A stretch of DNA of 37,277 nucleotides from Waterburya agarophytonicola KI4. Lineage in GTDB: Bacteria; Cyanobacteriota; Cyanobacteriia; Cyanobacteriales; Xenococcaceae. The DNA is taken from assembly GCF_020640915.1 (NCBI RefSeq), contig NZ_JADWDC010000006.1, positions 97,163-134,439 of the forward strand. The letters run 5' to 3'. The notes under the pieces were generated by a model that did no database searches, had not been told where the DNA came from, and saw only the letters and a program-made list of their open reading frames with translations. A program made the position numbers and the translations under genes. Shown one piece after another: positions 16,553 to 34,868 of the stretch (the first letter of the stretch is position 1; each line of letters begins with the position of its first letter).

Positions 16553-16563
16553 TAAAACTATTT

Positions 16564-17910: not shown

Positions 17911-17978
17911 GTTATTTGTCAAAGATAAGCCATAGCTTTGTTCTATTGTCATTGTCCATTGTCCATTGTTTATTATTT

Positions 17979-19364
17979 ATGTTTTTCCTAATCTACCTCG
18001 TGATGTTCGGCTGGATTCCAGTCGTCTTCCATCTCTTTAATCGTTTTCCCGCCCGTCAAGCTGTAATTATTGGCTTTATTGTGGCATGGTTATTTTTACC
18101 TCAAAAAGAATTTCCCCTACCTGGTTTGCCTGACTATACGAAGGTTTCCGCTACTTGCTATGGTATTGCGATCGCGACAATTGTTTATGATATTGGTCGT
18201 TTTCGATCTTTTAAATTTAGCTGGGTCGATCTGCCAATGCTGGTATGGTGTTTGTGTCCCATCCCATCATCAATAAGTAATGGCTTGGGTACTTATGACG
18301 GTTTATCTTCAGCACTTTTGCAAATAATAACCTGGGGCGCACCGTACTTTTTAGGTCGCATATATCTTAATAGTCTGGCGGGATTGGGTCAATTAGCCAC
18401 GGGTATTTTTTTGGGGGGACTGGTTTATGTTCCTCTTTGTTTGTTTGAGATTAAAATGAGTCCCCAGTTACACCGCATAGTTTATGGCTTTAGTCCTTTT
18501 TCCTTTGCCCAGACTATTCGTTATGGAGGTTATCGACCATCGGTATTTATGCAGCATGGTTTGGAAGTAGGGATGTGGATGATGGCAGCAACCTTGATTG
18601 GCATGTGTTTTTGGAAAACTGGTGTTATTCGTCAGGTATACAACATTCCTATCTCTTGGCTGGTATCGGCATTATTAATAACTTTCATTTTAATTAAGTC
18701 TACTGGAGCATATTTTTTGTTGTTTTTAGGCATAGGTATATTGCTCTTTGCTTGGCAGTTTCGTTCGTCCTTAATTGTTTTATTGTTGATAGCATTTATT
18801 TATATTTATTTTGGTCAAAATACTTTAAGCGAAACTTATGTTTCCGATCAGATAGTTACTTCTCTTTCAGGAATTGTGCCAAAAGATAGAATACAATCTT
18901 TGGAATTTAGATTTAACAATGAAGAAATGCTCACCGACAAAGCTAGAGAAAAGATAGTTTTTGGTTGGGGTGGCTGGGGCAGAAATAGAGTTTATCAATA
19001 TACTTGGGACGGTAAATTAATTGATGTTTCGATCACCGATAGTTTGTGGATTATTGCCTTCGGTCAAAATGGTTTAGTTGGTTTGATGAGCGTGTTTTCA
19101 GCATTTTTCTTTCCTGCGATCGCTTTTATCAAACGTTATCCTGCAAGTTACTGGTTTAAGCCTCAAGTTGCCCCCGCAGCAGTAATTACCATAATTTTAG
19201 TTTTATATATGGTTGATAGTTTATTTAATGCCATGATTAATCCTATCTTCATATTAGCCTGTGGAGGAGTAGCGGGAACGGCAGTAGCTCAAACTGTTAC
19301 AAATAAGCCTCAGCATAATTTCAATCATTTAAAACATAGACAATTTTACTCTACTGAAAATTAA
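17979..19364 (+). CDS. Wzy/O-antigen ligase-like membrane protein
   Basis: I start this gene at the ATG at 17979 (MFFLIYLVMFGW; 461 residues), because the longer open frame from 17658 overlaps the flippase gene and reads as non-natural sequence there. The protein has roughly ten to twelve hydrophobic segments. A large hydrophilic loop in the C-terminal third contains IVFGWGGWGRNRVY followed by DSLWIIAFGQNGL, matching the periplasmic loop of Wzy_C/O-antigen ligase proteins. It would polymerise flipped repeat units in the periplasm or ligate them. Placement directly after Wzx supports the polymerase reading. The upstream spacer holds a short TTGTCCA-type repeat, common between cyanobacterial genes. 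Confidence 0.85.
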   Translation: MFFLIYLVMFGWIPVVFHLFNRFPARQAVIIGFIVAWLFLPQKEFPLPGLPDYTKVSATCYGIAIATIVYDIGRFRSFKFSWVDLPMLVWCLCPIPSSISNGLGTYDGLSSALLQIITWGAPYFLGRIYLNSLAGLGQLATGIFLGGLVYVPLCLFEIKMSPQLHRIVYGFSPFSFAQTIRYGGYRPSVFMQHGLEVGMWMMAATLIGMCFWKTGVIRQVYNIPISWLVSALLITFILIKSTGAYFLLFLGIGILLFAWQFRSSLIVLLLIAFIYIYFGQNTLSETYVSDQIVTSLSGIVPKDRIQSLEFRFNNEEMLTDKAREKIVFGWGGWGRNRVYQYTWDGKLIDVSITDSLWIIAFGQNGLVGLMSVFSAFFFPAIAFIKRYPASYWFKPQVAPAAVITIILVLYMVDSLFNAMINPIFILACGGVAGTAVAQTVTNKPQHNFNHLKHRQFYSTEN

Positions 19365-19473
19365 AGACTTGGTAAACATATCAGTATTATTACTATTTTT
19401 TTAAAAAGCCATATTAGGATCGATAAATAATATAAAAGATTTTTTATTTAATCAATTCAATTAGAGAACTAAT

Positions 19474-22400
19474 ATGATTGAGCAGACACAAAATATGACT
19501 GAGGTAACATCCAAAACAGTCGATTATGCTCATTGGGAACAATGGTTGCAAAGCGATGAATATACTAATCAAATTAATTATTGGCAAGGACAATTAGCCA
19601 ATGCTGTACCCTTATTAGAATTACCTACTGACAGATCTCGACCATCAGTACAGACCTATAAAAGCGATCGCTTTTCTTTTAAGCTTGCTCAAAATTTAGT
19701 TCAATCTCTTGAATCTTTAAGTGTCGGAAAAGGTGTTAGTTTGTATGTAACTCTCTTAACGGCTTTTAAAATTTTACTGTATCGTTATACAGAACAGTCT
19801 GATATTCTTGTTGGTTCGACTTTTAACATAGATTCAAAAGAGTCTAATTTTTTATTTAATACTTTAGTTTTGCGGACTAATGTAGCCGATGAATTGAGTG
19901 TGTCAGAATTATTAAACCGCGTTCAAACAGTAACTTCGGAGGCTCAAAATAATGGCAAACTACCCTTTGCTAAGTTAGTTGAAGAACTCCACTTCGAACA
20001 GGACAACAGCTATAATCCTCTATTTCAGGTCATGTTTACTCTACAAAAAGAACATGAACTCTCAAAATTAGGCGATCGCACTAACAGACTAAACCGTCAC
20101 TGTTCGATGCTAGATTTGACTTTAGATCTACAAGAAGCCAAAGCAGGAATACAAGGAAATTTAGAATACAACACCGATTTATTCGACTGCGAAACTATTA
20201 GTAGAATGGTCGGTCACTGGCAAACATTACTAGAAGGAATTGTTGCCAATCCCGAAGCAAAAATTATTCATCTGCCTCTATTAACTACCGCTGAAAAACA
20301 AACTTTTATCGAATGGAATCAAGCTGTAGAAGGTAGTGAAAATAGCAATAATTTCAATATCCAGCAGCTATTTGAGGCACAGGTAGAACTTACTCCTGAT
20401 GCAGTGGCGGTTGAGTTTAATAGTCAACAGCTAACCTATCAACAGCTTAATCAACAGGCTAACCAGCTAGCCCATCACTTGCAGTCTTTGGGAATTACAG
20501 CAGAATCTTTAGTTGGTATCTGTATTGAAAGATCCTTAGAAATGATCGTCGGTCTACTGGGCATTTTAAAGGCTGGCGGTGCTTATGTACCCCTTGACCC
20601 TAATTATCCCCAAGAACGTTTGGCTTATATGGTCAAAGATGCCAATATCTCCGTATTGCTAACTCAGACTAAATGGCAGAATGCAATACCAGAAAACCAA
20701 GCCCAAACTGTTAACTTAGATTCAGATTGGTCGCAGATTACTACCAACAGTACCAAAAATCCAGGTGTAAGCATTGTAGATAAAAATCTTGCTTACGTAA
20801 TCTATACCTCTGGTTCGACAGGAAATCCCAAGGGTGTGATGATTACCCATCAAGGATTGACCAGCTTTACTAAATCGGCGACTCAAGTTTATAACATCAG
20901 TCAAAGCGATCGCATTTTGCAGTTTGCTTCAATTAATTTTGATGCTGCGGTAGAGGAAATATTTCCCTGTCTCTGTGTTGGAGCAACTTTAGTGCTACGC
21001 ACCGATGCAATGGTGAGCAACTTAAAGACTTTTTTCCAAACTTGTGCAGATTTAGAACTAACCGTATTGGGTTTACCAACTGCTTACTGGCATCAACTAA
21101 CGGCAGAATTAAAAACTAAAGACGTTCCCTGTCCAGACTCTCTCAGATTAGTCATGATCGGAGGGGAAGCTGCAATGCCCGAACCAGTAAGGCACTGGCA
21201 AAAATATGTCGAGAAATCGGGGAAAAGCGATCGCTTACAGCTAATAAATTCCTATGGTCCGACAGAAATCACTGTTGTTGCGACCACATATCCAGTTTCT
21301 CCAACTGTTCCTTTGGTGGGAGAAGTACCTATTGGTAAACCTTTACCTCATTTACAGAGTCATATTCTTGACCGACATCAACAGCCTGTACCGATTGGTG
21401 TACCAGGAGAACTATATGTTGGTGGAGATAGTTTAGCAAGGGGATATCTCAACCGTCCAGAATTAACCCAAGAGAAATTTATTGTTCATTCCTTTAACCA
21501 AGAAGTATCGCGTCTTTATAAAACAGGAGATTTAGCACGATATTTACCTGATGGAGAAATCGAATATTTAGGTCGTATTGATAACCAAGTAAAAATAAGA
21601 GGCTTTCGGATTGAGTTGGGTGAAGTAGAAGCCGTATTAACCCAGCATCCAGAGATCAGTGAAGTGGCGGTAACTGTCAACGAAGATGGTTCGGGCGACA
21701 AACGTCTGATTGCATATATCGTTAGTTCTTCGGAAATACTGCAAACTCAGGAGGTGCGTTCTTTTCTCCAAGAGCGACTGCCCAACTACATGATGCCCAG
21801 TGCCTTCGTATTTCTTAAAGCGATGCCGTTAACTCCCAACGGTAAGCTAGATCGTCGAGCATTGCCCGTACCAGATATCAACTCCAGACAAACTAATACC
21901 GATCTAGTCTTACCTACTAATGATGTAGAGCAAAAACTAGTAGAAATTTGGTCAGAGGTTTTGGGAATTGACTCTATTAGTATTCAAGACAACTTTTTTG
22001 AACTAGGCGGACATTCTTTACTAGCCGTGAAGCTATTTGGGGAAATTGAAAGTCACTTCGATCGCAAGTTTCCTTTGACTGTTTTATTTGAAGCCCCGAC
22101 AATCGAGCAGTTAGCGATTACTTTGCAGACATCTCAACAGGGAGATTTTGATTCGATAGTCAAGCTCAAAGCAGGAAATTCCCAGACACCTTTATTTCTC
22201 GTCCACGATGCCGATGGTGAAACCATCCTCTATTCCCAGTTGGCAAATCATCTTAACCCAGAACAGACGGTTTATGGGATTAGACCCCGTTATCATGCAG
22301 ATTCGAGTACGCCCCTGCTACCAACTAGAATCAGTCAAATGGCAGAGAATTATGTCAAGGAAATGCGTCGAGTCCAACCCCAAGGTCCTTATTTAATTGG

Positions 22401-23058
22401 TGGTTTGTGTGCGGGGGGAGTATTAGCCTTTGAAATGGCTTGTCAACTTCAGGCGCAAGGGAAAGAAGTTCCTTTAGTAGCGATTTTTGATGCCATTAGT
22501 CCCCAGGGAATTGGCGATAATCATCAAGTTCCTGTCAATCAAAACCGTCAAGAAAGCTTCGCTAAAGCTTTAAAAGGGAAAAAGACCAGTTTTAAATCTT
22601 GGGCTAATGTTCTTAAAATGGCATTTACTAAAGCTTCTAACCTAATTAGTTACGAAGTCAGCACCAGAACCAAAAAACTGACAAACAACCTGCGGATTAA
22701 GCTTTTAAGATACTGTAGCGATCGCAATATTACCATTCCCAAGCTTTGTCAAAACATTCCTCTAAGAAACATCTATATCTACGCCGAAGATGAATATGCT
22801 CGAAGCAAACCATCGGTGTATCGAGGTCAACTAACCCTGTGGCGGGCTACAGAAAAAATAGATTTTGACAACCCAGCGATCGATGACACCCCTGTAATTT
22901 GGGAAGTCCAAGACCCCCTATTCGGCTGGAACAAACAAGCCACAGAAGGAGTGGTGGCACATGATATCCCTGGAGGTCATTCTAGTATGCTTCAGGCACC
23001 CCATGTTGAAGTAATGGCACAGCAATTGCAACCATACATCGATGCAATTAACCTTTAA
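19474..23058 (+). CDS. Single-module NRPS: half condensation, adenylation, carrier, thioesterase
   Basis: The protein has 1194 residues. Residues 17-270 match only the C-terminal half of a condensation domain (INYWQGQL, ELPTDRSRP, NTLVLR, LPFAKLVEEL, NPLFQVMF); the HHxxxDG half is absent. Adenylation spans about 295-800, with LAYVIYTSGSTGNPKG, NSYGPTE, YKTGDLARY and PLTPNGKLDRRAL. My hand reading of the ten specificity positions is D-A-E-G-M-G-S-V-V-K, which I cannot match to a substrate. The carrier has FFELGGHSLL (Ser848). The thioesterase (about 900-1194) has GLCAG with Cys979 in the nucleophile position, Asp1006 and the GGHS His1169. It should activate one amino acid and release or transfer it by the TE. 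It lies amid Wzx, Wzy and glycosyltransferase genes, so an amino-acyl decoration of the polysaccharide is possible; an independent small metabolite is the alternative. Confidence 0.9.
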   Translation: MIEQTQNMTEVTSKTVDYAHWEQWLQSDEYTNQINYWQGQLANAVPLLELPTDRSRPSVQTYKSDRFSFKLAQNLVQSLESLSVGKGVSLYVTLLTAFKILLYRYTEQSDILVGSTFNIDSKESNFLFNTLVLRTNVADELSVSELLNRVQTVTSEAQNNGKLPFAKLVEELHFEQDNSYNPLFQVMFTLQKEHELSKLGDRTNRLNRHCSMLDLTLDLQEAKAGIQGNLEYNTDLFDCETISRMVGHWQTLLEGIVANPEAKIIHLPLLTTAEKQTFIEWNQAVEGSENSNNFNIQQLFEAQVELTPDAVAVEFNSQQLTYQQLNQQANQLAHHLQSLGITAESLVGICIERSLEMIVGLLGILKAGGAYVPLDPNYPQERLAYMVKDANISVLLTQTKWQNAIPENQAQTVNLDSDWSQITTNSTKNPGVSIVDKNLAYVIYTSGSTGNPKGVMITHQGLTSFTKSATQVYNISQSDRILQFASINFDAAVEEIFPCLCVGATLVLRTDAMVSNLKTFFQTCADLELTVLGLPTAYWHQLTAELKTKDVPCPDSLRLVMIGGEAAMPEPVRHWQKYVEKSGKSDRLQLINSYGPTEITVVATTYPVSPTVPLVGEVPIGKPLPHLQSHILDRHQQPVPIGVPGELYVGGDSLARGYLNRPELTQEKFIVHSFNQEVSRLYKTGDLARYLPDGEIEYLGRIDNQVKIRGFRIELGEVEAVLTQHPEISEVAVTVNEDGSGDKRLIAYIVSSSEILQTQEVRSFLQERLPNYMMPSAFVFLKAMPLTPNGKLDRRALPVPDINSRQTNTDLVLPTNDVEQKLVEIWSEVLGIDSISIQDNFFELGGHSLLAVKLFGEIESHFDRKFPLTVLFEAPTIEQLAITLQTSQQGDFDSIVKLKAGNSQTPLFLVHDADGETILYSQLANHLNPEQTVYGIRPRYHADSSTPLLPTRISQMAENYVKEMRRVQPQGPYLIGGLCAGGVLAFEMACQLQAQGKEVPLVAIFDAISPQGIGDNHQVPVNQNRQESFAKALKGKKTSFKSWANVLKMAFTKASNLISYEVSTRTKKLTNNLRIKLLRYCSDRNITIPKLCQNIPLRNIYIYAEDEYARSKPSVYRGQLTLWRATEKIDFDNPAIDDTPVIWEVQDPLFGWNKQATEGVVAHDIPGGHSSMLQAPHVEVMAQQLQPYIDAINL

Positions 23059-23120
23059 CCTTTGCCCCTTTCCCAACCCTTACAAATCAATTAGTGCGTA
23101 AGATTAACCACTATAAAATC

Positions 23121-24107
23121 ATGTTCCACACCATTCAATTTCCCCATGAAAAAGTACTAGTAGTCATCGTCAACTACCGTACCGCCGATCTAACCATTAA
23201 CTGTTTACGCTCCCTCGTCCCTGAAATGCTTTTAGTACGAGGAATTCAGGTAACAGTGGTCGATAATGCGTCGGGAGATGATTCCGTTCCTAAAATTCAG
23301 CAGGCGATCGACGCTCAAGGCTGGGGAGATTGGGTCAATCTAGTTGCTTCGCCACACAACGGAGGTTTTGCTGCTGGCAACAATTTTGCCATTCGTCCCG
23401 CATTAGAATCCGATTGTCCCCCTGACTATTTTTTATTGCTCAATCCCGATACAGAAGTTCGTCCAGGAGCAATTAGAACCCTAGTCAATTTTATGGCAGA
23501 ACGCCCCAAGGTAGGCATTGCTGGCAGTAGCTTTGAATTGGCTGATGGCACACCCTGGCAAATAACCTTGCGCTTCCCCACCCTATTAAGTGAGCTAGAT
23601 TCAGGCTTGCGTTTGGGAATAGTTTCTAAGCTTCTAAGCAAATGGGTTGCGGCTCGACCAAGCGGGAATAAAATCTGTCAAGCTGACTGGCTACCAGGGG
23701 CTTGTATGTTGATTCGCCGTGAAGTTTTTGAATCAGTAGGCTTGATGGACGAAGGGTATTTTCTGTATTACGAAGAAACCGATTATTGCTTGCAGGCAAA
23801 GCGGGGGGGTTGGTCTTGTTGGTATGTGCCTGAAAGTGTAGTGATGCACATTGGAGGACAAAGTACGGGGGTGGAAGTACCCAATGAACCCCCCGAAAGG
23901 TTGCCGAAATACTGTTTTGATTCCCGTCGTCGCTATTTTATCAAAAATCATGGCCTAGTATATGCTGCGATCGCCGATTTGTTCTACATCTCTGGTTTGA
24001 TTCTTTGGAAAATCAGACAGGCAATTCAACGAAAACCAAGTTTCGATCCGCCAAATTATCTGGGAGATTTGATTCAAAATAGCGTATGGCTCAAGGGAGC
24101 GAGATAA
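23121..24107 (+). CDS. GT2 glycosyltransferase (rhamnosyltransferase-like)
   Basis: The protein is 328 residues from the ATG at 23121; a GTG at 23094 would add nine residues and cannot be excluded. It is a single GT-A domain with VLVVIVNYRTADLT, VVDNASGDDS, NNFAIRPALE and LLLNPDTEVRPGA (the DxD-like site). The acceptor half has WLPGACMLIRRE and GYFLYYEETDYCLQAKRGGW. This is the WbbL/rhamnosyltransferase-like branch of GT2, but the donor is not provable. It follows the NRPS stop by 62 bp and precedes the next GT4 by 5 bp, so it belongs to the polysaccharide run. Confidence 0.9.
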   Translation: MFHTIQFPHEKVLVVIVNYRTADLTINCLRSLVPEMLLVRGIQVTVVDNASGDDSVPKIQQAIDAQGWGDWVNLVASPHNGGFAAGNNFAIRPALESDCPPDYFLLLNPDTEVRPGAIRTLVNFMAERPKVGIAGSSFELADGTPWQITLRFPTLLSELDSGLRLGIVSKLLSKWVAARPSGNKICQADWLPGACMLIRREVFESVGLMDEGYFLYYEETDYCLQAKRGGWSCWYVPESVVMHIGGQSTGVEVPNEPPERLPKYCFDSRRRYFIKNHGLVYAAIADLFYISGLILWKIRQAIQRKPSFDPPNYLGDLIQNSVWLKGAR

Positions 24108-24112
24108 AAAAT

Positions 24113-25327
24113 ATGAATACTAAGCTTGGATATTTACTACCAGAATTTCCTGGACAAACTCACACTTTCTTCTGGCGAGAAATTAAAGCCTTAGAAAGCA
24201 AAAACATTGAGGTAGATATTGTTTCAACCAAACGTCCCTCATCTGAGATTATGTCTCATACTTGGTCATCAGAAGCTGAGAGCAGAACTACTTATTTATT
24301 TCCCCCAACTACTACACTTTTGATTAAAGCTGTTTTAGAACTATTCAATTCTGGTTTACCAGCATGGTTGCGTTGTTTTAAAGCGATCGCTCAAGCCAAA
24401 GATGTTTCATTGTTGGGTAAACTTCGTCTTCTGCTTTTAATGTTGGCAGGAGCAGAATTAGCTTATCTAGCAAAAAGTAAAGGCTGGCAACACCTCCACG
24501 TTCATTCTTGTGCCGATGGTGCGAATATCGCTATGTTTGCCCACTTAATTTCGGCAATTCCCTATTCCATCACTTTACATGGTCCATTGAGGGACTATGG
24601 GGCTAATCAACGGCAAAAATGGCACTTTGCTAAGTTTGCCACAGTGATTACCCAAAAACTGTATGATGAAGTTGCCGATGAATTACAAGGTTGTTTGCCA
24701 GATAAAATAGCCATCGCACCGATGGGGGTAGACACATCTGTATATCGACGCAACCATAACTATTCCCCTTGGCAAAAAGATACTCCCTGCTACATATTTA
24801 GCTGTGGTCGTTTGAATCCTGTCAAAGGACATGAAGATTTAATCAGATCGATACCCTTGCTTCTCAATCAAGGTGTGGATGCTTATTTAACCATTGCAGG
24901 GGATGGAGAGCAGGGTAAAAATCAATATCGTCAAAAACTAGAAGAAATTATCCAAACCCTAGGACTAGAAAGGCGAGTTTCCCTCATCGGAGCTGTATCC
25001 GAAGATGTTCTCCTCCAGTATTTAGAAAAGGCTCATGTTTTTTCCTTGGCTAGCTGGGAAGAGCCATTAGGAGTAGCCATTATGGAAGCAATGTCGATGC
25101 AACTTCCTGTTGTAGTGACAAAAGCTGGAGGAGTAGGGGAATTAGTAGAAGACAACATCAGCGGAATTTTTGTCGAACCGCGATCGCCAGAACGATTGGC
25201 AGCAGCAATATTACAGGTTAATTCTGACCCCCAAAAAGCCATAAATATAGGAGAAGCTGCGCGAGAAAGAGTCTGTAAGTCTTTTAATAGCATCCGTGGG
25301 GCGGAAGTATTAATAGAAAGTATTTAA
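24113..25327 (+). CDS. GT4 glycosyltransferase
   Basis: I chose the ATG at 24113 (MNTKLGYLLPEFPGQTHTF; 404 residues). An ATG at 24086 overlaps the previous gene and adds nine untypical residues. The GT-B protein has HLHVHSCADG and ITLHGPLRDYG in the N-domain. The donor domain has IFSCGRLNPVKGHEDL, LTIAGDGEQG and the EX7E motif in SWEEPLGVAIMEAM. The N-terminal pattern GYLLPEFPGQTHTFFWRE is close to that of the first GT4 gene of the run (INQYPAVSHSFIRRE), so the two are likely distant paralogues. It adds a sugar to the lipid-linked unit in the cytoplasm. Confidence 0.9.
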   Translation: MNTKLGYLLPEFPGQTHTFFWREIKALESKNIEVDIVSTKRPSSEIMSHTWSSEAESRTTYLFPPTTTLLIKAVLELFNSGLPAWLRCFKAIAQAKDVSLLGKLRLLLLMLAGAELAYLAKSKGWQHLHVHSCADGANIAMFAHLISAIPYSITLHGPLRDYGANQRQKWHFAKFATVITQKLYDEVADELQGCLPDKIAIAPMGVDTSVYRRNHNYSPWQKDTPCYIFSCGRLNPVKGHEDLIRSIPLLLNQGVDAYLTIAGDGEQGKNQYRQKLEEIIQTLGLERRVSLIGAVSEDVLLQYLEKAHVFSLASWEEPLGVAIMEAMSMQLPVVVTKAGGVGELVEDNISGIFVEPRSPERLAAAILQVNSDPQKAINIGEAARERVCKSFNSIRGAEVLIESI

Positions 25328-25361
25328 CCAATTAAACAATTTTTTTAGATAAGTATTAACC

Positions 25362-26675
25362 ATGAATTACCGAAAACTTAAAGTTCTTCTTATTGTCGAA
25401 CAATGTAATCCTGAATGGGCATCTGTCCCCTTAGAAGGCTACAACTATTATCATGAAATTAGCCAGAGAGCAGATGTAACTTTAGTTACTCATGAAAGAA
25501 ATAAATCGGCTTTAGAAAAGACAGCAAACAACGAAAATATTATCTATATAACTGAAGCTAAATGGGTAGAGCATTATTATAATATTGTTAGCAAAATAAC
25601 CGCTAGCGGCAGAATAAATTGGCCCTTACAACACGCTCTAACCTATCCAATTTATGCCCAGTTTAATCACCGTGTTTATCAGCAGTTTAAGCAACAGGTT
25701 AAAGAGCAACACTATGATGTTGTTCATGCCATTACTCCGATGATGCCCAGATATCCAGCTAAAATTGTTCGAGCTTGTCAAAATACGCCCTTTATTTTAG
25801 GTCCAGTAAATGGAGGAGTTCCTTTTCCTGCTGGATTTAAAACAATAGCTAAACAAGAGTTTGTTCAATACAATTTTCTTAAAAAGATTGGTAGAAATTT
25901 GATTCCAGGGTATGTAGAAACCTATCGTAAAGCAGACAAAATACTTGCAGGTTCTAGCTATACTTTAAAAATGCTACAAAAGATTTTCAATCTTCCCAAA
26001 CATAAGATTGATTTGTTCTATGAAAATGGTATTACTGCTAATTTTTTAACTAAATATCCCAAAGAAATTAGTAAAAATGACAAAGTAAATTTACTTTTTG
26101 TGGGGAGATTAGTTCCCTATAAAGGAGCAGATATGTTGATAGAAGCAATTGCTCAATTAAAAGAAAGTGATCGCGCCAAAATACGGTTAAATATTGTTGG
26201 TGATGGTTCGGAAAAAAGCGATCTTCAACAAAGAGTAGAGAAATTTAATTTAAGCAATATAGTCAATTTTGTCGGCTGGGTACAACAGGGAGAAACTTTA
26301 GAATATTACCGCAGATCCGACATATTTTGTTTTCCTTCAATCAGAGAGTTTGGTGGTGCGGTGGTGCTGGAAGCTATGGCTAGCGGTTTACCCTGTATTG
26401 TGGTCAACAATGGCGGTATTGGAGAGTATGTTACCGAAACAAATGGCTTTAAAATTGAACCAATTTCAAGGGAACATATAGTTCGAGAGTTGGGCAATAA
26501 GATCGAGTATCTATTAGAAAATAAAGACATACTGAAGCAAATGTCTTCTGAATCGATCGCCAGGGCTAAAGAATTTGAATGGGGAGTTAAAGCAGAGAAG
26601 ATCGCTGCTATCTACCAGGATGTGATCGCAGAAAAACAGCACTTGAAAGTAATTGAACAGCCCAGCTTTGCCTAA
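25362..26675 (+). CDS. GT4 glycosyltransferase
   Basis: This 437-residue GT-B protein differs from its neighbours: the N-domain opens KVLLIVEQCNPEWASVPLEG and includes HAITPMMPRYP and ILGPVNGG. The donor domain has LLFVGRLVPYKGAD, LNIVGDGSEK and the EX7E motif in REFGGAVVLEAM. The GPVNGG segment occurs in several GT4 enzymes whose acceptors are lipid-linked sugars (from memory). It lies 34 bp after the previous GT4 and 63 bp before the next gene on the same strand. Donor sugar unknown. Confidence 0.9.
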   Translation: MNYRKLKVLLIVEQCNPEWASVPLEGYNYYHEISQRADVTLVTHERNKSALEKTANNENIIYITEAKWVEHYYNIVSKITASGRINWPLQHALTYPIYAQFNHRVYQQFKQQVKEQHYDVVHAITPMMPRYPAKIVRACQNTPFILGPVNGGVPFPAGFKTIAKQEFVQYNFLKKIGRNLIPGYVETYRKADKILAGSSYTLKMLQKIFNLPKHKIDLFYENGITANFLTKYPKEISKNDKVNLLFVGRLVPYKGADMLIEAIAQLKESDRAKIRLNIVGDGSEKSDLQQRVEKFNLSNIVNFVGWVQQGETLEYYRRSDIFCFPSIREFGGAVVLEAMASGLPCIVVNNGGIGEYVTETNGFKIEPISREHIVRELGNKIEYLLENKDILKQMSSESIARAKEFEWGVKAEKIAAIYQDVIAEKQHLKVIEQPSFA

Positions 26676-26738
26676 TAAATACCGACACTAATAATGTATT
26701 TAAACTAATACTTTTAAAGAAAAATATAAGTAATTAAA

Positions 26739-27890
26739 ATGAACAATCATACTGCTTTAAATTACCAAGAAGGAAGAATTGCTATCTTATCGGAAAGAGC
26801 AATCAACGATCATGTAGCGTCTTGCTGTCTCTATGAATTTGAAGATGCGATCGCTCAAGTAGATCGAGTTGACTTTTTTACTCCAAAACGCTCTTACAAA
26901 TCTGCCTATAGAAACTATACATGGGCAAAAAGATTGACTAGATCGTCAAAACTTGCCAATCATTTAAAGCTCGATCCCAATTCATTTACTTTAGAACATG
27001 ATTACGATATGTTCTTTATGATTCTCGATAATCCTGGTAAGTTTATTGCTCTAAATACTCTTAGAAATTGGCGTAAAAAATGCCAGAAAGCTGTCTGCTA
27101 TATTATCGAAATTTGGGAAGAACAAATACCTCAATGGAAACCAATTCTTGAACTATTTCAAGACTTCGATCATATTTATTTAGGACATAAAAATTCGGTG
27201 GAAGCAGTAGCAGAAATTACTGGTGTTCCCTGTACCTATTTACCCTTTGGTACAGACGCGATTAGATTTAGTCCCAACTCCATCACTTCCCCTCGCGGTA
27301 TCGATGTAACTAATATCGGTCGTCGTTCGGTAGTCACCCATCAGGCTTTGCTAGATCGAATGGAGTTGGGCGACTTTTTCTACTACTACGATACTCCTAA
27401 AAATTTTCATATTCAAAACCCTCAAGAACACCGCAATCTTTTGGCTAACTTAGCTAAAAATAGTCGTTACTGGATTACCAATAATCCCAACTTCAATGAC
27501 GATCCTCGTTCTAAAAAAGGTATTCAAAAAGAAATAGGCTACCGCATTTTTGAAGGCACTGCGGGAGGAGCGATCGCCATTGGCAATCAAACCGCCACCG
27601 AGGAATTTAATAAACATTTTGACTGGAAAGATTCTTTAATTTCCATCCCCGCCGATGCCAGCAACATCGCCGACATTATCGAAGAACTAGACGGTCAAAG
27701 CGATCGCATCGAACAAATTCGCCGTCATAATATTTCTAACTCACTCCTCAGACATGACTGGGTATACCGCTGGCGACATATCTTAGAAACTGCTGGGTTA
27801 GAAATTACTCCCGAAATACTGACGAGAGAACTTCAACTAAAGCAACTTGCCGAAAGGTTTTCTCCTATTCCTACTCTCTCCAAAAGTTAA
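26739..27890 (+). CDS. GT-B glycosyltransferase-like protein (CgeB/Glyco_trans_1_2 type)
   Basis: The protein has 383 residues. The C-terminal half contains IQKEIGYRIFEGTAGGAIAI followed by an acidic stretch. This matches the UDP-sugar binding end of the Glyco_trans_1_2 (CgeB/YkvP-like) family, in which the R-x-FE-x3-GG pattern is conserved. TYLPFGTDAIRF marks the domain junction. The N-terminal half is poorly conserved and gives no acceptor clue. Its position within the operon, 4 bp before an acetyltransferase gene, supports a role in building the repeat unit. The glycosyltransferase call rests mainly on the C-terminal motif. Confidence 0.75.
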   Translation: MNNHTALNYQEGRIAILSERAINDHVASCCLYEFEDAIAQVDRVDFFTPKRSYKSAYRNYTWAKRLTRSSKLANHLKLDPNSFTLEHDYDMFFMILDNPGKFIALNTLRNWRKKCQKAVCYIIEIWEEQIPQWKPILELFQDFDHIYLGHKNSVEAVAEITGVPCTYLPFGTDAIRFSPNSITSPRGIDVTNIGRRSVVTHQALLDRMELGDFFYYYDTPKNFHIQNPQEHRNLLANLAKNSRYWITNNPNFNDDPRSKKGIQKEIGYRIFEGTAGGAIAIGNQTATEEFNKHFDWKDSLISIPADASNIADIIEELDGQSDRIEQIRRHNISNSLLRHDWVYRWRHILETAGLEITPEILTRELQLKQLAERFSPIPTLSKS

Positions 27891-27894
27891 TCCG

Positions 27895-28392
27895 ATGAAA
27901 GCACTTAAAACCGTAACCAAATCTAATTCAACTGTCGAACCAGATTGGTCAAGAGAAAAAATATCTCGCTGGTGGAGTCCTTCCGAACAGCTACTTAAAT
28001 CGATTCGTAGTTATCAAAGTTGGCAACAAAGAAAAATTCTAGGATTTGCTTTTTCTAAAATCAACGTACTCGAACATCGGTTTTGGAGTGTGGTTACTGC
28101 TGCCGATATTCCGATTAATTCCCACCTTGGAGGAGGATTACTGTTGATTCACCCCAACGGCATTATTATCCATCCCGAAGCAACTATCGGCGTAAACTGC
28201 CTCATTTTTCAACAGGTAACAATTGTAGGTGGAGTCAAAATTGGCAGTCATGTAGATATAGGTGCAGGGGCAAAAATTATTCGTCCTGTAACTATTGGAG
28301 ACTATGCCCAAATTGGTGCTAATGCCGTAGTAGTTAATGATGTTCCAATGGGGGCAACCGTGGTTGGAATACCTGCAAAAATAGTGGTTTAG
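27895..28392 (+). CDS. Hexapeptide-repeat O-acetyltransferase (serine acetyltransferase-like)
   Basis: The ATG at 27895 is used, 4 bp after the previous stop, giving 165 residues; an earlier in-frame ATG at 27847 lies inside the upstream gene. A short helical N-domain (1-70) is followed by left-handed beta-helix hexapeptide repeats (about 74-165). These include LLLIHPNGIIIHPEATIG, QQVTIVGGVKIG, GAKIIRPVTIG and GANAVVVNDVP. His86 in the IHPNG motif matches the catalytic His of CysE-like enzymes. In this setting it probably acetylates a sugar of the repeat unit using acetyl-CoA instead of making O-acetylserine. The next gene starts 2 bp after its stop. Confidence 0.85.
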   Translation: MKALKTVTKSNSTVEPDWSREKISRWWSPSEQLLKSIRSYQSWQQRKILGFAFSKINVLEHRFWSVVTAADIPINSHLGGGLLLIHPNGIIIHPEATIGVNCLIFQQVTIVGGVKIGSHVDIGAGAKIIRPVTIGDYAQIGANAVVVNDVPMGATVVGIPAKIVV

Positions 28393-28394
28393 TC

Positions 28395-29402
28395 ATGACA
28401 ATACTCAACAAAAGAGAACTCGGTTTGGTAGTTATTGGGCGCAACGAAGGAGATTTACTGCGTCAATGCTTATTATCTGCGATCGCCGTCGTGCCTTATA
28501 TTGTCTATGTTGACTCTGGTTCGACTGACAACAGTGTTACCATGGCTCGATCTTTAGGGGTAGAAATAGTCGAACTCGATCTATCCCGACCCTTTACCGC
28601 AGGTCGTGCCAGGAATGAAGGTTTCTTTTATTTAACTGCCCAATATCCCCAAATTGAATTAGTTCAGTTTGTAGATGGAGACTGTGAAATTGTCGATGGG
28701 TGGCTAACAACTGCCCAAGAAACTCTAGAAGCTGAACCAAATATTGCGATCGCCTGTGGTCGTCGTCGGGAACGTTATCCAGATAAATTTATTTATAATC
28801 GACTGTGCGACCTTGAATGGGATACTCCTGTAGGTGAAATCAAAGCCTGTGGTGGCGATTTTATGGTGCGCGTAACGGCATTCCAATGGGTGGGGGGATT
28901 TAATCCTACTTTAATCGCTGGAGAAGAACCAGAACTATGTATCAGACTACGTCAACAGCATCGGCAAATTCTCCGTATCGACGCAGACATGACTCTACAT
29001 GATGCTTGCATGACTACTATTGGTCAATGGTGGCAAAGAGCTGTGCGCGGTGGCTATGCTTATGCTGAAGGTTCTTGGCTTTATGGCAAAACTGCCGAAC
29101 GTCATTGGGTAAAAGAAAGTCGTAGTATCTGGTTTTGGGGTTTAATTTTGCCCCTATTAATCGTAGTTTTGCTGCTACCCACTAACAATTTTAGTTTACT
29201 TTTGCTGGGCTTATATCCTCTGGTGATTTATCGCGTTTATCAGAGTTTAGATCGACAAATTGCTCGTAAAGATGCTTGGTCTTATGCTATCCACTGTATT
29301 TTGAGTAAATTTCCCCAAATCCAGGGACAAATTCGTTTTCATTGGGCAAGATTACAAGGAAAACGCAGTAACTTAATTGAATATAAAAGTACTATATATT
29401 AG
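28395..29402 (+). CDS. GT2 glycosyltransferase with C-terminal membrane helices
   Basis: The 335-residue protein has a GT-A domain with LGLVVIGRNEGDLLRQCL, YVDSGSTDNS, the AGRARNEGF acceptor motif, the DxD motif FVDGDCE, and GGDFMVR/GGFNPTLIAGEEPELC. One or two hydrophobic helices at about 245-285 (FWGLILPLLIVVLLLP, LLLLGLYPLVIY) anchor it to the membrane. The start lies 2 bp after the acetyltransferase stop, a clear sign of co-transcription. It transfers a sugar in repeat-unit assembly; the donor is unknown. Confidence 0.9.
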   Translation: MTILNKRELGLVVIGRNEGDLLRQCLLSAIAVVPYIVYVDSGSTDNSVTMARSLGVEIVELDLSRPFTAGRARNEGFFYLTAQYPQIELVQFVDGDCEIVDGWLTTAQETLEAEPNIAIACGRRRERYPDKFIYNRLCDLEWDTPVGEIKACGGDFMVRVTAFQWVGGFNPTLIAGEEPELCIRLRQQHRQILRIDADMTLHDACMTTIGQWWQRAVRGGYAYAEGSWLYGKTAERHWVKESRSIWFWGLILPLLIVVLLLPTNNFSLLLLGLYPLVIYRVYQSLDRQIARKDAWSYAIHCILSKFPQIQGQIRFHWARLQGKRSNLIEYKSTIY

Positions 29403-29542
29403 TTTTATTGAGTTTTTCAAAATTTTTTTGAAAATAATTAATCTCTTTTTAAATAACGTCACAATTAGAAATGTTGTATATCACAGTATTGGACAGAGGG
29501 CATTGTTAGGGTGTGGGCGTTATAAGTAAAAGTAGAAAATAT

Positions 29543-30373
29543 ATGATTATTGCAGATAAGAAAAAAGCTATTTTTATTCACATAGAAAAAACTGGGGGTC
29601 GTAGTATAACTAAACTTTTAGCTCCTTATATTTCTGAAAAATATAGACAAAAAAACTCAAGAATGCCTGGTTCTGGAAGAGGTTGGGGCCCAACTTGGCA
29701 TATTAATCCACAACATTCTAGATTCTCAGAATCTTTACCAATTCTAGACAATTTCAATATTAAACCCCAAGAATATTTTAAATTTGCGATAGTCAGAAAT
29801 CCCTATAGTCGGTTATTATCAGTTTGGTTGAATAAGTACAGATCGCCAATGGACGTACACCAAACTATAACCAATAAATTAAGATTTCAAATTGCCAAAC
29901 ATACTGGGATTAAAAAGTTTCCTTCTCAGCATTTTTACGAAATTTATCCTGATGGTAGTTTTAAAAATTTTGTTCTTTTTATCGACTATATTGTAACTAA
30001 TTACTCAACAGAAATTGCCAGAAGATATATCGGTGCAACTGATCAATATAGTTATATTGAAAACGATCGCAATCTTGAATTTGATTTGATTGGTAAATTA
30101 GAAAATATAAACTTAGATTTAGCAGCAATCAACGATCAATTGCAGTTAACTAAAGGTTATGAAATTCCCCATTTAAACAAAAATGACCAATCTAAAAACA
30201 AGAAAAAATTCTTAGAATTTTATGACGATGAATCAATTGAAATAGTCAACAGACTCTTTGTTAGAGACTTCAAGACTTTTGGTTACGAACGATTATCATC
30301 GGTTGCTGAATCTCAAGAAAGCCAACCCAAAATAGGAGAAAATATATCTTCGAGGGAAGAAAGTTTCCGTTAG
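29543..30373 (+). CDS. Sulfotransferase-family protein
   Basis: The ATG at 29543 gives 276 residues; a GTG at 29513 would add ten. Near the N-terminus IFIHIEKTGGRSITKLL (10-26) resembles the 5'-phosphosulfate loop of PAPS-dependent sulfotransferases. FAIVRNPYSRLLSVWLNK (81-98) matches the 3'-phosphate site (RNPYSR...S). This is the Sulfotransfer_2/carbohydrate sulfotransferase pattern. It would sulfate a sugar of the polysaccharide with PAPS; sulfated exopolysaccharides are well known in cyanobacteria. It lies 140 bp after the last GT2 on the same strand and is followed by a hairpin, so it is probably the last gene of the run. Its higher Lys/Asn content is unlike its neighbours. Confidence 0.8.
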   Translation: MIIADKKKAIFIHIEKTGGRSITKLLAPYISEKYRQKNSRMPGSGRGWGPTWHINPQHSRFSESLPILDNFNIKPQEYFKFAIVRNPYSRLLSVWLNKYRSPMDVHQTITNKLRFQIAKHTGIKKFPSQHFYEIYPDGSFKNFVLFIDYIVTNYSTEIARRYIGATDQYSYIENDRNLEFDLIGKLENINLDLAAINDQLQLTKGYEIPHLNKNDQSKNKKKFLEFYDDESIEIVNRLFVRDFKTFGYERLSSVAESQESQPKIGENISSREESFR

Positions 30374-30731: not shown

Positions 30732-31202
30732 ATGCTTGTTAACCGCTATCAAACCGTCTATCTTTCCTTCATTTCTACAGACTTACCAGTCTGGAATGTA
30801 ATTGAAGCCAAAGCATCTCTGTATCAAAAAGATCGAGAAAAATTCCATTTATTACTCAATCAGCAAAACTTACCTCGTTCGATATGTCCCGATCTTGCGG
30901 AAAAATGCGATCGCGGACTATTTTGGCTGGAAATTACGCCTTACCGAGTAATGATGACGATGCAAAGTAATAATCAACTCAGTTATCGACACTTTTGGGA
31001 AAGGGGAATATATGGAGTAAGTCGATATTGTCTTAACACTGCACCCGATCTTCCTAGTCAATCTTTACGATTTCGCAATTTTACGCGCTATCTCAAAGTA
31101 GAACAAGATATTATCCCGCGAAATGTCCGTATTGAGTATGAGATGTGGTCGCATAATGTTCAGTTGGGATCTTATATCCTTCATTTAGATATTGATACTT
31201 AA
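30732..31202 (+). CDS. Conserved hypothetical protein (156 aa)
   Basis: I do not recognise a named family. The product starts MLVNRYQTVYLSFISTDLPVW and has no signal peptide, membrane segment or repeat. It contains several Trp and aromatic-rich stretches (GLFWLEITPYRVMM, HFWERGIYGVSRY) and ends in a mixed beta-like pattern (VRIEYEMWSHNVQLGSYI), suggesting a compact cytoplasmic alpha/beta fold. Codon use and clean boundaries look like a real gene. It lies on the same strand 147 bp upstream of the NO synthase gene, but a possible promoter lies between them, so a functional link is uncertain. Confidence 0.7.
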   Translation: MLVNRYQTVYLSFISTDLPVWNVIEAKASLYQKDREKFHLLLNQQNLPRSICPDLAEKCDRGLFWLEITPYRVMMTMQSNNQLSYRHFWERGIYGVSRYCLNTAPDLPSQSLRFRNFTRYLKVEQDIIPRNVRIEYEMWSHNVQLGSYILHLDIDT

Positions 31203-31307: not shown

Positions 31308-31346
31308 TCTTTAAAATCAATCTTTAAAATCAATCTTTAAAACCGC
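31308..31346 (+). repeat. Three tandem 13-bp repeats just before the NO synthase start
   Basis: The unit TCTTTAAAATCAA occurs at 31308-31320 and exactly again at 31321-31333, followed by a third copy at 31334-31346 that matches in its first 10 bases. The array ends 3 bp before the ATG at 31350, so it lies in the 5' leader of the gene. It could be a protein-binding array, a slippage-prone leader or chance. Confidence 0.85.
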
Positions 31347-31349
31347 GCT

Positions 31350-34300
31350 ATGGATACTCAGCTAATAGTAGAGAAAAAAGTAGTTGTTTTTGTTTCTCAA
31401 CCTAATTACGAACCAGCACAACGGCTTATCGATCTACTTCAAGCTGATATTGGTTTGTTTAAAGTAGTTGAGATAGACGACCTAGATAATAGCAAAGCTG
31501 ATTTTGAAGATAGTTATACGGCGGTGATGTTTATCACTCCCGCTGACTTTCCTAAAGCACTGTATCTTAGCAATGCTGCGGTTGAAATTGTACGGGAATT
31601 TAATCTAAAACAACTAATCTGGATTGCGCCCAGTGCAGAAAGAAGCAGTGGTTTAGAGCAAGCATTGTCTAGAGCAGCAGAAATCATCAAAAACTCTGGC
31701 TTGGAAACGATAATTCTGCGTCATGCGCCTATATTCTCAGATTTGCTAAATTTTCAAAAAGAAATCAAATTTCGTCGCACCCTTTCCTTACCCCTAGAAA
31801 ATAATTCTCTTCCCTGGGTTGCCCCAGAAGATATTGCAGAGGGAATATATAAGTGGCTTGCGGGAACTAATCGAGCTAAACCTCCCAAAGTATTGACGGG
31901 TAGAAGTCAGTTAGGGGGAATCGATCTGGCTCAAGAAATCTCTACGGTATTAGAACGCAATTTAGATGGAATTGGTTTTGCCAGACGTTGTTTTAAGGCG
32001 ATCGATACTAACAATAGTGGCGATCTCGATCGCGATGAGATGTTTGCTTATTTAGAACAGCTAGCCTATAGCCAAGAAGAAGCAGAAGAGTTGATCGAAC
32101 AAGCAGATACTAACCAAGACGGTTCGATTGATTTTGATGAATTTGTGGCGGGTTTGGGACGGCATTTAGACAAAATTTTGGCAGATTTGCCCCGACAAGT
32201 GCAATATGTTAACGTTCCTCCCTCTACCGTACTCTACGACCTACAAACTAGGGGATTGGACGAACAAAGTGTACGAGCTTGGTTGGCTTTAATTCATAGC
32301 TATCACAATGCAGAATTGGCGATCGATAAATCTTGTACAGAATGGTTGGGAAGAGGTTCTACTTCTTTTGGTAGTTGGCTGGAAAATCATGTTTTAAATT
32401 TCGTTAATGTCTATATTCTTCCTTCGAGGGGGATTTTAACCATTAGCGAGGGAACTTTAGCAGGAAAACCCGCTTTAACTACCCGCATGTTGCAAAGCGA
32501 CGATCGCCTTTTAGTGGGAGTACGAACTTTAGATAATCGCTCTGTAGAGTGGAAATGGGAAAATAGGGATACCAATGATATTGAGTTGGTGAAATATGAA
32601 ACAGATCGGGGAGGACAGCGTACTCTTCGGTTTAAAGACGACCAATTAGTGGGGATGTCGGTACAGGGTACGTGGTTGGGCAGAAAGTTGGCTAACAATT
32701 TGATGTTTAAGCAAGAATCTCTCCCTCGCTGGCAGATTAACCTCTTTCGAGAGTTAGGAGAATTACAAATTGAAGAGGTAAACAATCTTGTCGATCCAGA
32801 TAGTATTGTTTGTAACTGTACCCAAACTACTTGCGGTCAATTACAAGAAATGATTGCAGGAGGGTTGGATACCCTAGAGAAAATTGCCGAAGCGACCCAA
32901 ATTACCATGATCTGTGGCGGTTGTCAGCCTTTGGTAGAAGAAATGTTGGGTTCGGCTAATCTGGATGTAGCAGAGATGATGTTCAAGCAAGATCTGGGAC
33001 GGGGTATTTTCCGCTTCCAATTTCGTCCCGTCAACGAACCTGTGATCTCTTATCTACCAGGACAGCATCTTTTGATTCAAGGGCGAGTTGATGGAGTGTG
33101 GGTAACTAGAGCCTATACTTTATCTTCTAACGCGGATCAAAATAGAATTTATGAAATTACCGTCAAGCGGGAAGAAATGGGGTTATTTTCCCGTTGGCTG
33201 TGCGATCGCGCGGACAAACATGCTCTATTTCGTATTTCCCAACCTCGCGGAGAATATATCCTCGAAAACGAGCCAGAAGTTTACTTTTTTGCAGGGGGAA
33301 TTGGCGTTACTCCCGCTATATCGATGATGCGTACTCTAGCTAGCAGAAAAGATCAGCGTCCTTTTTATTTAGATTGGTCTGCACCCCAACCCCAAGACTT
33401 TGTTTTTCAGAAGGAACTAAATTTTATTCAAAGGAAATTTCCTAACTTTAAGGTTAAGTTGACTTCTACTCGTACTGAGGGAAGATTAACCACCGAAAAA
33501 ATACAAGAGAATTATAGCTATAAAGAAGGTGCGGTAGCCTTTCTCTGTGGTCCTCAAGTCTATATGGATGCAGTGCGATCGCATTTATTAGAAGCGGGAT
33601 GGGCTGACGATGCTATTCGCCAGGAATTGTTCTCTTCCAAACTAGATGAAGAAGGAAATGCAGAACCTCCCAAACGAGCTGCGGTACAGGTAGCAGGAGG
33701 AATCAAGGGTATTGAAAGCTATAGCTTTGATGTCCAGCCTGTAGGAGAAGTTGCTAAGGAAGCAGAAGCCTATCTCAAGCAGTGTTATGTCGAGAGGGGA
33801 CTACCTGAAGTCTTTTTACCCCGTTGGCAGGAAGTACGAGAAGAAATTGCCAAAACAGGCAAATACGAACATACTCTAGACGAATTGAGTTATGGTGCGC
33901 GGTTAGCTTGGCGCAATAGCAGTCGTTGTGTCGGGCGATATTTTTGGCAAAGTCTCCAGATCAGAGATATGCGTCATTTGGAGACGGAAGAAGAGATGTA
34001 TGGTGCAATAGTCGATCATATTAAGATCGCAACTAATAAAGGGGATTTGCGAGCGTTGATGACGGCATTTAAACCCGATGGTAGAAGATTGTGGAACGCT
34101 CAATTATTGCGCTATGCAGGATATAAACAAGAAGATGGAATGGTTTTGGGCGACCCTGCTAACGTCGAATTTACCGAACAAGCTTTAGAATTAGGGTGGA
34201 AACCCCCCGCTAACCCTACTCCGTTTGATTATTTACCTTTAGTAATTCAGCTACCAGGAAAAGAGCCTAAATGGTTCGATATTCCTCCAGAAATTATTCT

Positions 34301-34868
34301 AGATGTCAAGATCGTTCATCCTGATTATGAATGGTTTGAGGAATTAGGCTTAAAATGGTATGCTCTCCCCGCAGTATGTAATATGTCCCTAGATTTGGGT
34401 GGGGTGCAATATACCTGTACGCCCTTTAATGGTTTTTATATGGGTACGGAAATAGGCGGGCGCAACTTTAGCGATACCTATCGTTATAATAAACTACCCG
34501 CGATCGCGAAGAAGATGGGTTTAGACTGTAGCAGCAACGATACTCTATGGAAAGATCGAGCTTTAATTGAATTGAATGTTGCCGTGTTGCACTCTTTTAA
34601 AGAACAAGGTGTAAGATTGATCGACCATCACTCCATGACTGACTATTTCATGGAATTTATGGCAGACGAACAAAAATGTCAGCGTCCCATTCATGCAGAC
34701 TGGGGTTGGATCGTACCCCCTATATCTGGCTCTTTGACTCCCGTCTATCCTCTTGAATTTGAAAACCGCATTCTCAAGCCGAATTATTTTTATATGTCTG
34801 ATGCTTGGAAATCGGGGGAAACATCGAAAGGGAAATGTCCTTTCGCTCCCTCGGGGAATGATGACTAA
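31350..34868 (+). CDS. nos: Multidomain nitric oxide synthase with SDR-like, EF-hand, [2Fe-2S] and FNR modules
   Basis: The 1172-residue protein would make NO and citrulline from L-arginine, O2 and NAD(P)H. Residues ~8-175 look like an NmrA/SDR-type nucleotide-binding fold. Two canonical EF-hand loops follow at 219-230 (DTNNSGDLDRDE) and 253-264 (DTNQDGSIDFDE). Residues ~280-475 match nothing I know. A BFD-type [2Fe-2S] domain has Cys488, Cys490, Cys522 and Cys525. An FNR-like reductase (~548-765) has RAYTLSS (587-593), FAGGIGVTPA (647-656) and FLCGPQVYMD (731-740). The NOS oxygenase (~795-1150) has WRNSSRCVGR with heme-ligand Cys860, MGTE with substrate-binding Glu1034, DHHSMTDYFMEFM and WIVPPISGSLTPV. 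Animal NOS places oxygenase first and uses FMN; here reductase precedes oxygenase and FMN is absent, somewhat like the Sorangium enzyme. Ca2+ control through the EF-hands is inferred. Confidence 0.93.
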   Translation: MDTQLIVEKKVVVFVSQPNYEPAQRLIDLLQADIGLFKVVEIDDLDNSKADFEDSYTAVMFITPADFPKALYLSNAAVEIVREFNLKQLIWIAPSAERSSGLEQALSRAAEIIKNSGLETIILRHAPIFSDLLNFQKEIKFRRTLSLPLENNSLPWVAPEDIAEGIYKWLAGTNRAKPPKVLTGRSQLGGIDLAQEISTVLERNLDGIGFARRCFKAIDTNNSGDLDRDEMFAYLEQLAYSQEEAEELIEQADTNQDGSIDFDEFVAGLGRHLDKILADLPRQVQYVNVPPSTVLYDLQTRGLDEQSVRAWLALIHSYHNAELAIDKSCTEWLGRGSTSFGSWLENHVLNFVNVYILPSRGILTISEGTLAGKPALTTRMLQSDDRLLVGVRTLDNRSVEWKWENRDTNDIELVKYETDRGGQRTLRFKDDQLVGMSVQGTWLGRKLANNLMFKQESLPRWQINLFRELGELQIEEVNNLVDPDSIVCNCTQTTCGQLQEMIAGGLDTLEKIAEATQITMICGGCQPLVEEMLGSANLDVAEMMFKQDLGRGIFRFQFRPVNEPVISYLPGQHLLIQGRVDGVWVTRAYTLSSNADQNRIYEITVKREEMGLFSRWLCDRADKHALFRISQPRGEYILENEPEVYFFAGGIGVTPAISMMRTLASRKDQRPFYLDWSAPQPQDFVFQKELNFIQRKFPNFKVKLTSTRTEGRLTTEKIQENYSYKEGAVAFLCGPQVYMDAVRSHLLEAGWADDAIRQELFSSKLDEEGNAEPPKRAAVQVAGGIKGIESYSFDVQPVGEVAKEAEAYLKQCYVERGLPEVFLPRWQEVREEIAKTGKYEHTLDELSYGARLAWRNSSRCVGRYFWQSLQIRDMRHLETEEEMYGAIVDHIKIATNKGDLRALMTAFKPDGRRLWNAQLLRYAGYKQEDGMVLGDPANVEFTEQALELGWKPPANPTPFDYLPLVIQLPGKEPKWFDIPPEIILDVKIVHPDYEWFEELGLKWYALPAVCNMSLDLGGVQYTCTPFNGFYMGTEIGGRNFSDTYRYNKLPAIAKKMGLDCSSNDTLWKDRALIELNVAVLHSFKEQGVRLIDHHSMTDYFMEFMADEQKCQRPIHADWGWIVPPISGSLTPVYPLEFENRILKPNYFYMSDAWKSGETSKGKCPFAPSGNDD

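Follow-up and report, generated by a model that had tools for sequence, protein, structure and literature searches.

The cyanobacterium Waterburya agarophytonicola KI4 carries, in the 37,277-nucleotide stretch of DNA analysed here (contig NZ_JADWDC010000006.1, positions 97,163 to 134,439; hereafter the window), a gene that we read as encoding a self-sufficient, reductase-first nitric oxide (NO) synthase (NOS) of the Sorangium and Microcoleus kind with a built-in Ca2+ switch. We put the probability of this reading at roughly two in three. The gene occupies window positions 31350-34868; it starts with ATG and runs as a single open frame of 1172 codons without internal stops. The predicted protein of 1172 residues reads, in order, NmrA-like domain, EF-hand pair, unnamed domain, BFD, FNR and NOS oxygenase. 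Coordinates in parentheses after residue numbers are window positions on the forward strand.

In a Pfam scan of the protein, in which the EF-hand call and the four calls that follow each exceeded the gathering cut-off, Fer2_BFD (PF04324, E 4.6e-9) was placed at residues 486-533 (32805-32948), FAD_binding_6 (PF00970, E 1.5e-8) at residues 549-635 (32994-33254), NAD_binding_1 (PF00175, E 2.5e-11) at residues 647-743 (33288-33578) and NO_synthase (PF02898, E 8e-158, profile positions 4-362) at residues 800-1154 (33747-34811), with all three reductase families N-terminal to the oxygenase within one chain. Globin, Flavodoxin_1 and FAD_binding_1 were not matched in the same scan, which sets the protein apart from the globin-type NOS of Synechococcus PCC 7335 (SyNOS). 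Among the best 60 of 369 matches to the PDB, the top ones were NOS oxygenases (2flq, E 6.8e-120; nNOS, about 2e-117). The four-cysteine BFD pattern was kept in all ten proteins in which that region could be read, the window protein included. A preliminary description of the gene had named BFD cysteines 488, 490, 522 and 525, an FNR reductase and a complete NOS oxygenase with heme Cys860 and Glu1034, and had made its case dependent on an NO_synthase match at residues 795-1150. Its residue numbers were exact, the FAD and NAD(P) calls cover its reductase (549-743), and its oxygenase corresponds to a full-length PF02898 match in the place that it had required. Its domain order and cofactor domains therefore stand, but it overlooked the N-terminal 480 residues, which include the EF-hand pair, and this pair is the part that bears most on control of the enzyme.

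The EF-hand pair lies at residues 212-267 (31983-32150; PF13499, E 1.8e-11). Both of its Ca2+ loops, at residues 219-230 (32004-32039) and 253-264 (32106-32141), have the canonical pattern, making the protein a reversed-order NOS with two intact EF-hand motifs. Two canonical loops were found in eight of the nine proteins whose EF region could be read, the exception being the close relative at locus L053, which has one and in which the first ligand of loop 2 is lost. Among 20,000 shuffles of the window protein, none contained a pair of EF loops at the window's spacing, and a single loop appeared in 49. A stricter loop pattern that took in position 7, the backbone ligand, recovered a pair in the window protein alone and in 1 of 20,000 shuffles; it was abandoned as too strict.

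The Sorangium cellulosum enzyme (scNOS) has a 2Fe2S ferredoxin subdomain and FAD and NAD motifs at its N-terminus (PMC3701330), and together with Microcoleus NOS it is described as having reversed order and two EF-hand motifs, with a BFD domain in the Sorangium protein (PMC7400543, 2020). The likeness to Sorangium NOS proposed in the preliminary description is borne out by these accounts: scNOS, like the window protein, has an N-terminal 2Fe2S (BFD)/FAD/NAD reductase, a C-terminal oxygenase and two EF-hand motifs. Unlike the window protein it is myxobacterial, and it was compared by description, the NmrA-like and unnamed domains lying outside the comparison. Following the described Sorangium enzyme and the domains present in the window protein, we propose a path in which NAD(P)H would reduce flavin adenine dinucleotide (FAD) in the FNR domain, electrons would pass singly from FAD to the BFD [2Fe-2S] cluster and on to the NOS heme-thiolate, and the NOS domain would convert L-arginine and O2 to citrulline and NO. 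Both this path and the self-sufficiency are reasonable proposals for the protein. Because the Ca2+ ligands are conserved and the sensor is exchanged in a relative described below, we further propose that Ca2+ bound by the EF-hand pair may open or close the reductase-to-heme step by way of the linker and unnamed domain (residues 276-482), setting the rate. The role that calmodulin plays as a separate protein in animal NOS would then be filled within a single chain. The likeness to animal NOS lies in this proposed logic, Ca2+ controlling electron flow from reductase to heme; animal NOS differs in its separate calmodulin, in using flavin mononucleotide (FMN) in place of [2Fe-2S] and in having the oxygenase first, a contrast drawn partly from general knowledge and partly from PMC3701330.

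The layout itself is not new. The preliminary description had offered a cyanobacterial NOS of this order as a novelty, and reductase-first NOS had already been reported in Microcoleus vaginatus and Crinalium epipsammum (PMC3701330, 2013) and again for Microcoleus with its EF-hand motifs (PMC7400543, 2020). These proteins, compared by description, resemble the window protein in being cyanobacterial with the reductase before the oxygenase, and in Microcoleus also in the EF-hand motifs. EF-hand/NOS fusions are in print as well (PMC7016017, 2020), and Crinalium NOS has been used in an alignment in a paper whose available passages do not mention EF-hands (PMC4648414). SyNOS, another multidomain NOS from a cyanobacterium, likewise carries a reductase of its own, but its order is globin-oxygenase-reductase and its reductase is of the flavodoxin-type FMN/FAD kind (PMC6104048). 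The oxygenase domains of the rows classed with the SyNOS type were 43-47% identical to that of the window and formed a separate clade. Reductase-first NOS with EF-hands is thus known, and two neighbouring layouts, set out below, were not found in the passages of the literature searched.

The first of these layouts replaces the NmrA-like and EF-hand parts with cyclic-nucleotide sensors. In a genome of the same phylum (G018, 94% complete), locus L045 (5358-8624, forward strand) encodes a protein of 1088 residues in which Pfam matched NO_synthase, BFD, FAD and NAD domains and two stretches of cNMP_binding (E 2.1e-45), but no EF-hand. A phosphate-binding cassette pattern occurs in both cyclic-nucleotide pockets, at residues 81 and 209. 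Profiles built without L045 recovered its unnamed domain (57.5 bits, E 3.9e-17), its BFD (24.5 bits, E 7.6e-7) and its FNR (171.7 bits, E 4.6e-52), whereas L045 went unmatched by the NmrA-like profile at E values up to 10 and was hit by the EF profile at noise level only (E 6.8); L045 and the EF-type proteins therefore have a common engine behind different front ends. Because L045 bears another second-messenger sensor in the EF slot while the engine is unchanged, this slot is suggested to be regulatory. In the oxygenase tree, L045 was flagged as a long branch and was placed beside the EF clade as its weakly supported sister (86/64), and its grouping with oxygenase-only NOS was not rejected (approximately unbiased test, p-AU 0.319). 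The common unnamed, BFD and FNR domains are a stronger argument than the tree for placing it with the reductase-first clade. The photosynthetic reaction-centre family PF00124 was matched in four of five genomes tested, the exception being the genome of L045, and in the class to which that genome belongs one of 18 genomes has any NOS. No report of a reductase-first NOS with cyclic-nucleotide-binding domains was found among passages and titles of the open-licence literature, which is weak evidence of absence.

The unnamed domain common to both types (residues 345-482; 32382-32795) is the candidate coupler between sensor and engine. It was assigned to no family above cut-off in either Pfam or NCBIfam, and its profile found seven places in six genomes among 120 relatives of the window genome, a sample that evidently does not include G018; all seven lay inside reductase-first NOS genes. 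Against the PDB, the profile gave matches to its BFD part alone. A NirB match (TIGR02374) at residues 412-535 vanished when the unnamed domain was searched alone and was ascribed mainly to the BFD part. Modelled alone, the domain reached a predicted local distance difference test score (pLDDT) of 37.9, which is unusable.

The heme-ligand Cys860 (33927-33929) is Cys in 36 of 36 aligned rows, Trp854, six residues before it, is invariant in the same 36, and Glu1034 (34449-34451), the substrate-arginine anchor of NOS, is Glu in all 36. At the position of the Val/Ile switch, Ile is common in bacterial NOS and Val in animal NOS. The window has Val1009 (34374-34376) there, as do all 11 reductase-first rows, whereas Ile occupies it in 16 of 16 oxygenase-first rows and the seven oxygenase-only rows are divided between Val (four), Ile (two) and Ala (one). 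Near the C-terminus, residues 1162-1165 (34833-34844) read Lys-Cys-Pro-Phe, resembling a heme regulatory motif; C-P-[F/Y] is found near the C-terminus of all ten readable EF-type proteins, with a preceding Lys in seven, and is not present at the C-terminus of L045.

In the tree of 36 oxygenase domains, the ten EF-type rows formed one clade (100/100), apart from the oxygenase-first (16) and oxygenase-only (7) cyanobacterial rows. Locus L054 was counted as EF-type from its visible part, and the oxygenase-first label was assigned to the 16 rows by exclusion, the Pfam scan covering five of them. The input was 45 oxygenase domains covering more than 300 profile positions, of which 34 were used after removal of 11 same-gene duplicates. 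Left out were L010, L018 and L020 (interrupted gene), L011-L013 and L019 (fragments), and L014-L017 (weak matches). The last four, from genomes G184, G287, G216 and G079 of one genus code, are sub-cut-off NO_synthase matches of 18-19 bits over profile positions 69-140, and they sit within frames of about 990 residues in small genomes.

Several points weigh against a Ca2+-switched NO generator. The case for activity, cofactors and Ca2+ response is drawn entirely from sequence, coupling is a candidate function for the unnamed domain, and sensor exchange was seen in one protein of one genome. The whole-protein structure model, made from the window protein and the L021 pieces, was unusable (mean pLDDT 33.2) for judging either the cluster-heme distance or EF contacts. 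The EF-hands may be structural, in which case the enzyme would be an always-on, self-sufficient NOS whose EF-hand pair serves structure or docking and does not gate electron transfer. Consistent with such an enzyme, the passages of literature found contain no demonstration of Ca2+ gating for any reductase-first NOS, loop 2 of L053 lacks its first ligand as described above, and SyNOS is reported to require high Ca2+ despite having no calmodulin site (PMC9500659), so an effect of Ca2+ does not have to depend on EF-hands. We consider this unlikely, given that both loops are canonical in nearly all of the proteins read and that L045 has another sensor type in the EF slot.

A different doubt concerns the product. 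The oxygenase could serve mainly to mobilise nitrogen from arginine to nitrate, could be coupled to NO scavenging, or could wastefully reduce O2, NO not being released as a signal. For the globin-type NOS of cyanobacteria, mobilisation of nitrogen from arginine to nitrate has been reported (PMC6104048), and H-NOX, a candidate downstream NO sensor, was matched in two of the ten genomes with the reductase-first type and not in the other eight, the window's among them, which is a further point against the Ca2+-switched reading. The window protein has no Pfam globin domain, and its Val at the switch position is as in animal NOS; in the mammalian enzymes this Val has been associated with efficient release of NO (PMC9500659). 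We regard this explanation as quite improbable.

The spread of the gene is patchy, and this also weighs against the Ca2+-switched reading. Matches to PF02898 occurred in 17 of the 386 phylum-sample genomes, 13 of them over cut-off, and in 42 of the 388 order-sample genomes. Among the order-sample loci, which were read in part, there were ten reductase-first genes in nine genomes (the window's, G099, G127, G408, G417, G436, G548, G558 with two, and G619, whose gene runs into the contig end with the N-terminus out of view); the other NOS loci read were oxygenase-only, oxygenase-first or fragments, the broken NOS of G131 being left unassigned to type. Any NOS was found in 3 of 27 genomes of the window's family, reductase-first in two, and in the window's genus reductase-first NOS was present in just 2 of 13 genomes searched. 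The EF-type relatives share 55-62% identity with the window protein, two pieces at L021 are 71-82% identical, and the best segment on a Pleurocapsa metagenome contig is 79% identical. Matches occurred in 14 plasmid records, their best places lying in the oxygenase part (query residues 779-1166), and none of these records covers 80% of the query. Three relatives are interrupted: L049:4806-8369 by an in-frame TAA, L053:1666-5187 (L053/L021) by an in-frame TAG, and L050:5366-8667 by a split over two different frames; whether these reflect sequencing error or decay is undecided. The NOS of G131 is broken, with stops inside (pieces at contig positions 1225-2460). Such losses would fit a decaying or non-functional gene, yet the window copy is open throughout with all tested cofactor and Ca2+ residues in place, and decay of this copy is very improbable.

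EF-hands occur a second time in cyanobacterial NOS, in the second of the neighbouring layouts. Two canonical EF loops were found in the oxygenase-first, FMN/FAD-type NOS at L064:1274-5893 (+), L065:2397-7016 (-), L066:1523-6166 (+) and L067:139-3867 (+), from genomes G354, G525, G618 and G647 of one genus code. Pfam called the EF-hand pair in all three proteins scanned (L008, L040 and L044, the same genes as L064-L066), and three of the 16 oxygenase-first tree rows show EF loops. By eye, the pair is inserted into a globin-like stretch, and in L068 this stretch runs without a break. The Pfam globin call is lost in L008, L040 and L044, and replacement of the globin by the EF pair was considered; it was rejected because the longer L064, set beside L068, has globin-like sequence on both sides. 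No report of an oxygenase-first NOS with an EF pair inside a globin-like region was found in passages of the open-licence literature, again weak evidence of absence.

The N-terminal part of the window protein, residues 1-208 (31350-31973), is NmrA-like by a match to TIGR03649 (E 1.2e-6) that, at 31 bits, falls far below the cut-off of 256. Sub-cut-off TIGR03649 matches were found in six of six aligned members, and Pfam NAD_binding_10 matched the N-terminus of three of these six, the window protein not among them. The GxxGxxG motif was not found in any of the eight proteins whose N-terminus lies in the rows read, placing this part outside ordinary NmrA/atypical short-chain dehydrogenase/reductase proteins. 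Because the motif is missing, ordinary nucleotide binding is not expected. A profile of the domain gave no PDB match.

Directly upstream of the NOS gene, at 30732-31202, is an open reading frame (ORF) of 156 residues for which Pfam gave no match at E 0.001, and just before the start codon, at 31310-31335, a 13-base direct repeat, tttaaaatcaatc, stands twice head to tail (by eye). Promoter and terminator scans were uninformative (13 promoter sites against 11.3 expected; 6 terminators against 4.5). Further upstream, positions 15266-30373 hold glycosyltransferase-like genes, a flippase-like protein, a one-module nonribosomal peptide synthetase with thioesterase (19474-23058) and a sulfotransferase (29513-30373), a block whose probable product is an exported polysaccharide; Pfam was run on three of these ORFs, and the others were named by eye. 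At three of the nine loci listed, which make up one subclade of the oxygenase tree, a bestrophin-family gene lies 3' of the NOS gene on the same strand (L046:8982-9893 and L051:5955-6887, by Pfam; L047:8518-9495, by likeness). Upstream of the NOS gene, an MHYT-domain gene is present at L051:12442-14022 (-), with a SpoIIE phosphatase, and, by likeness alone, at L047:1729-2193 (+). MHYT domains are thought to sense O2, CO or NO. In G131, L069:2763-4211 (-) adjoins the broken NOS pieces and is an ORF with several EF-hands and, by eye, a hemerythrin-like N-terminus.

Taken together with L045, the window protein leads us to a broader proposal, which we hold tentatively and at somewhat less than even odds. 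Reductase-first NOS may be a modular, second-messenger-gated bacterial NO generator, with one engine (unnamed domain, BFD, FNR and NOS) and exchangeable sensors, in which the unnamed domain would couple any sensor to the [2Fe-2S]-to-heme step. The sensors would be for Ca2+ in photosynthetic cyanobacteria and paired cyclic-nucleotide sensors in the member without a reaction-centre match. With the EF insertion in the globin-like region counted, cyanobacteria would have evolved Ca2+-controlled NO synthesis two or more times, separately from the calmodulin system of animals. Sensor gating can be put to the test through the cyclic-nucleotide version, with the unnamed domain as the likely coupler. 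If the EF-hands do gate electron flow, the window protein would be a single-chain, calcium-switched bacterial NOS, a counterpart of the animal NOS-calmodulin system with another electron path, and it would bear on whether Ca2+-to-NO signalling arose more than once.

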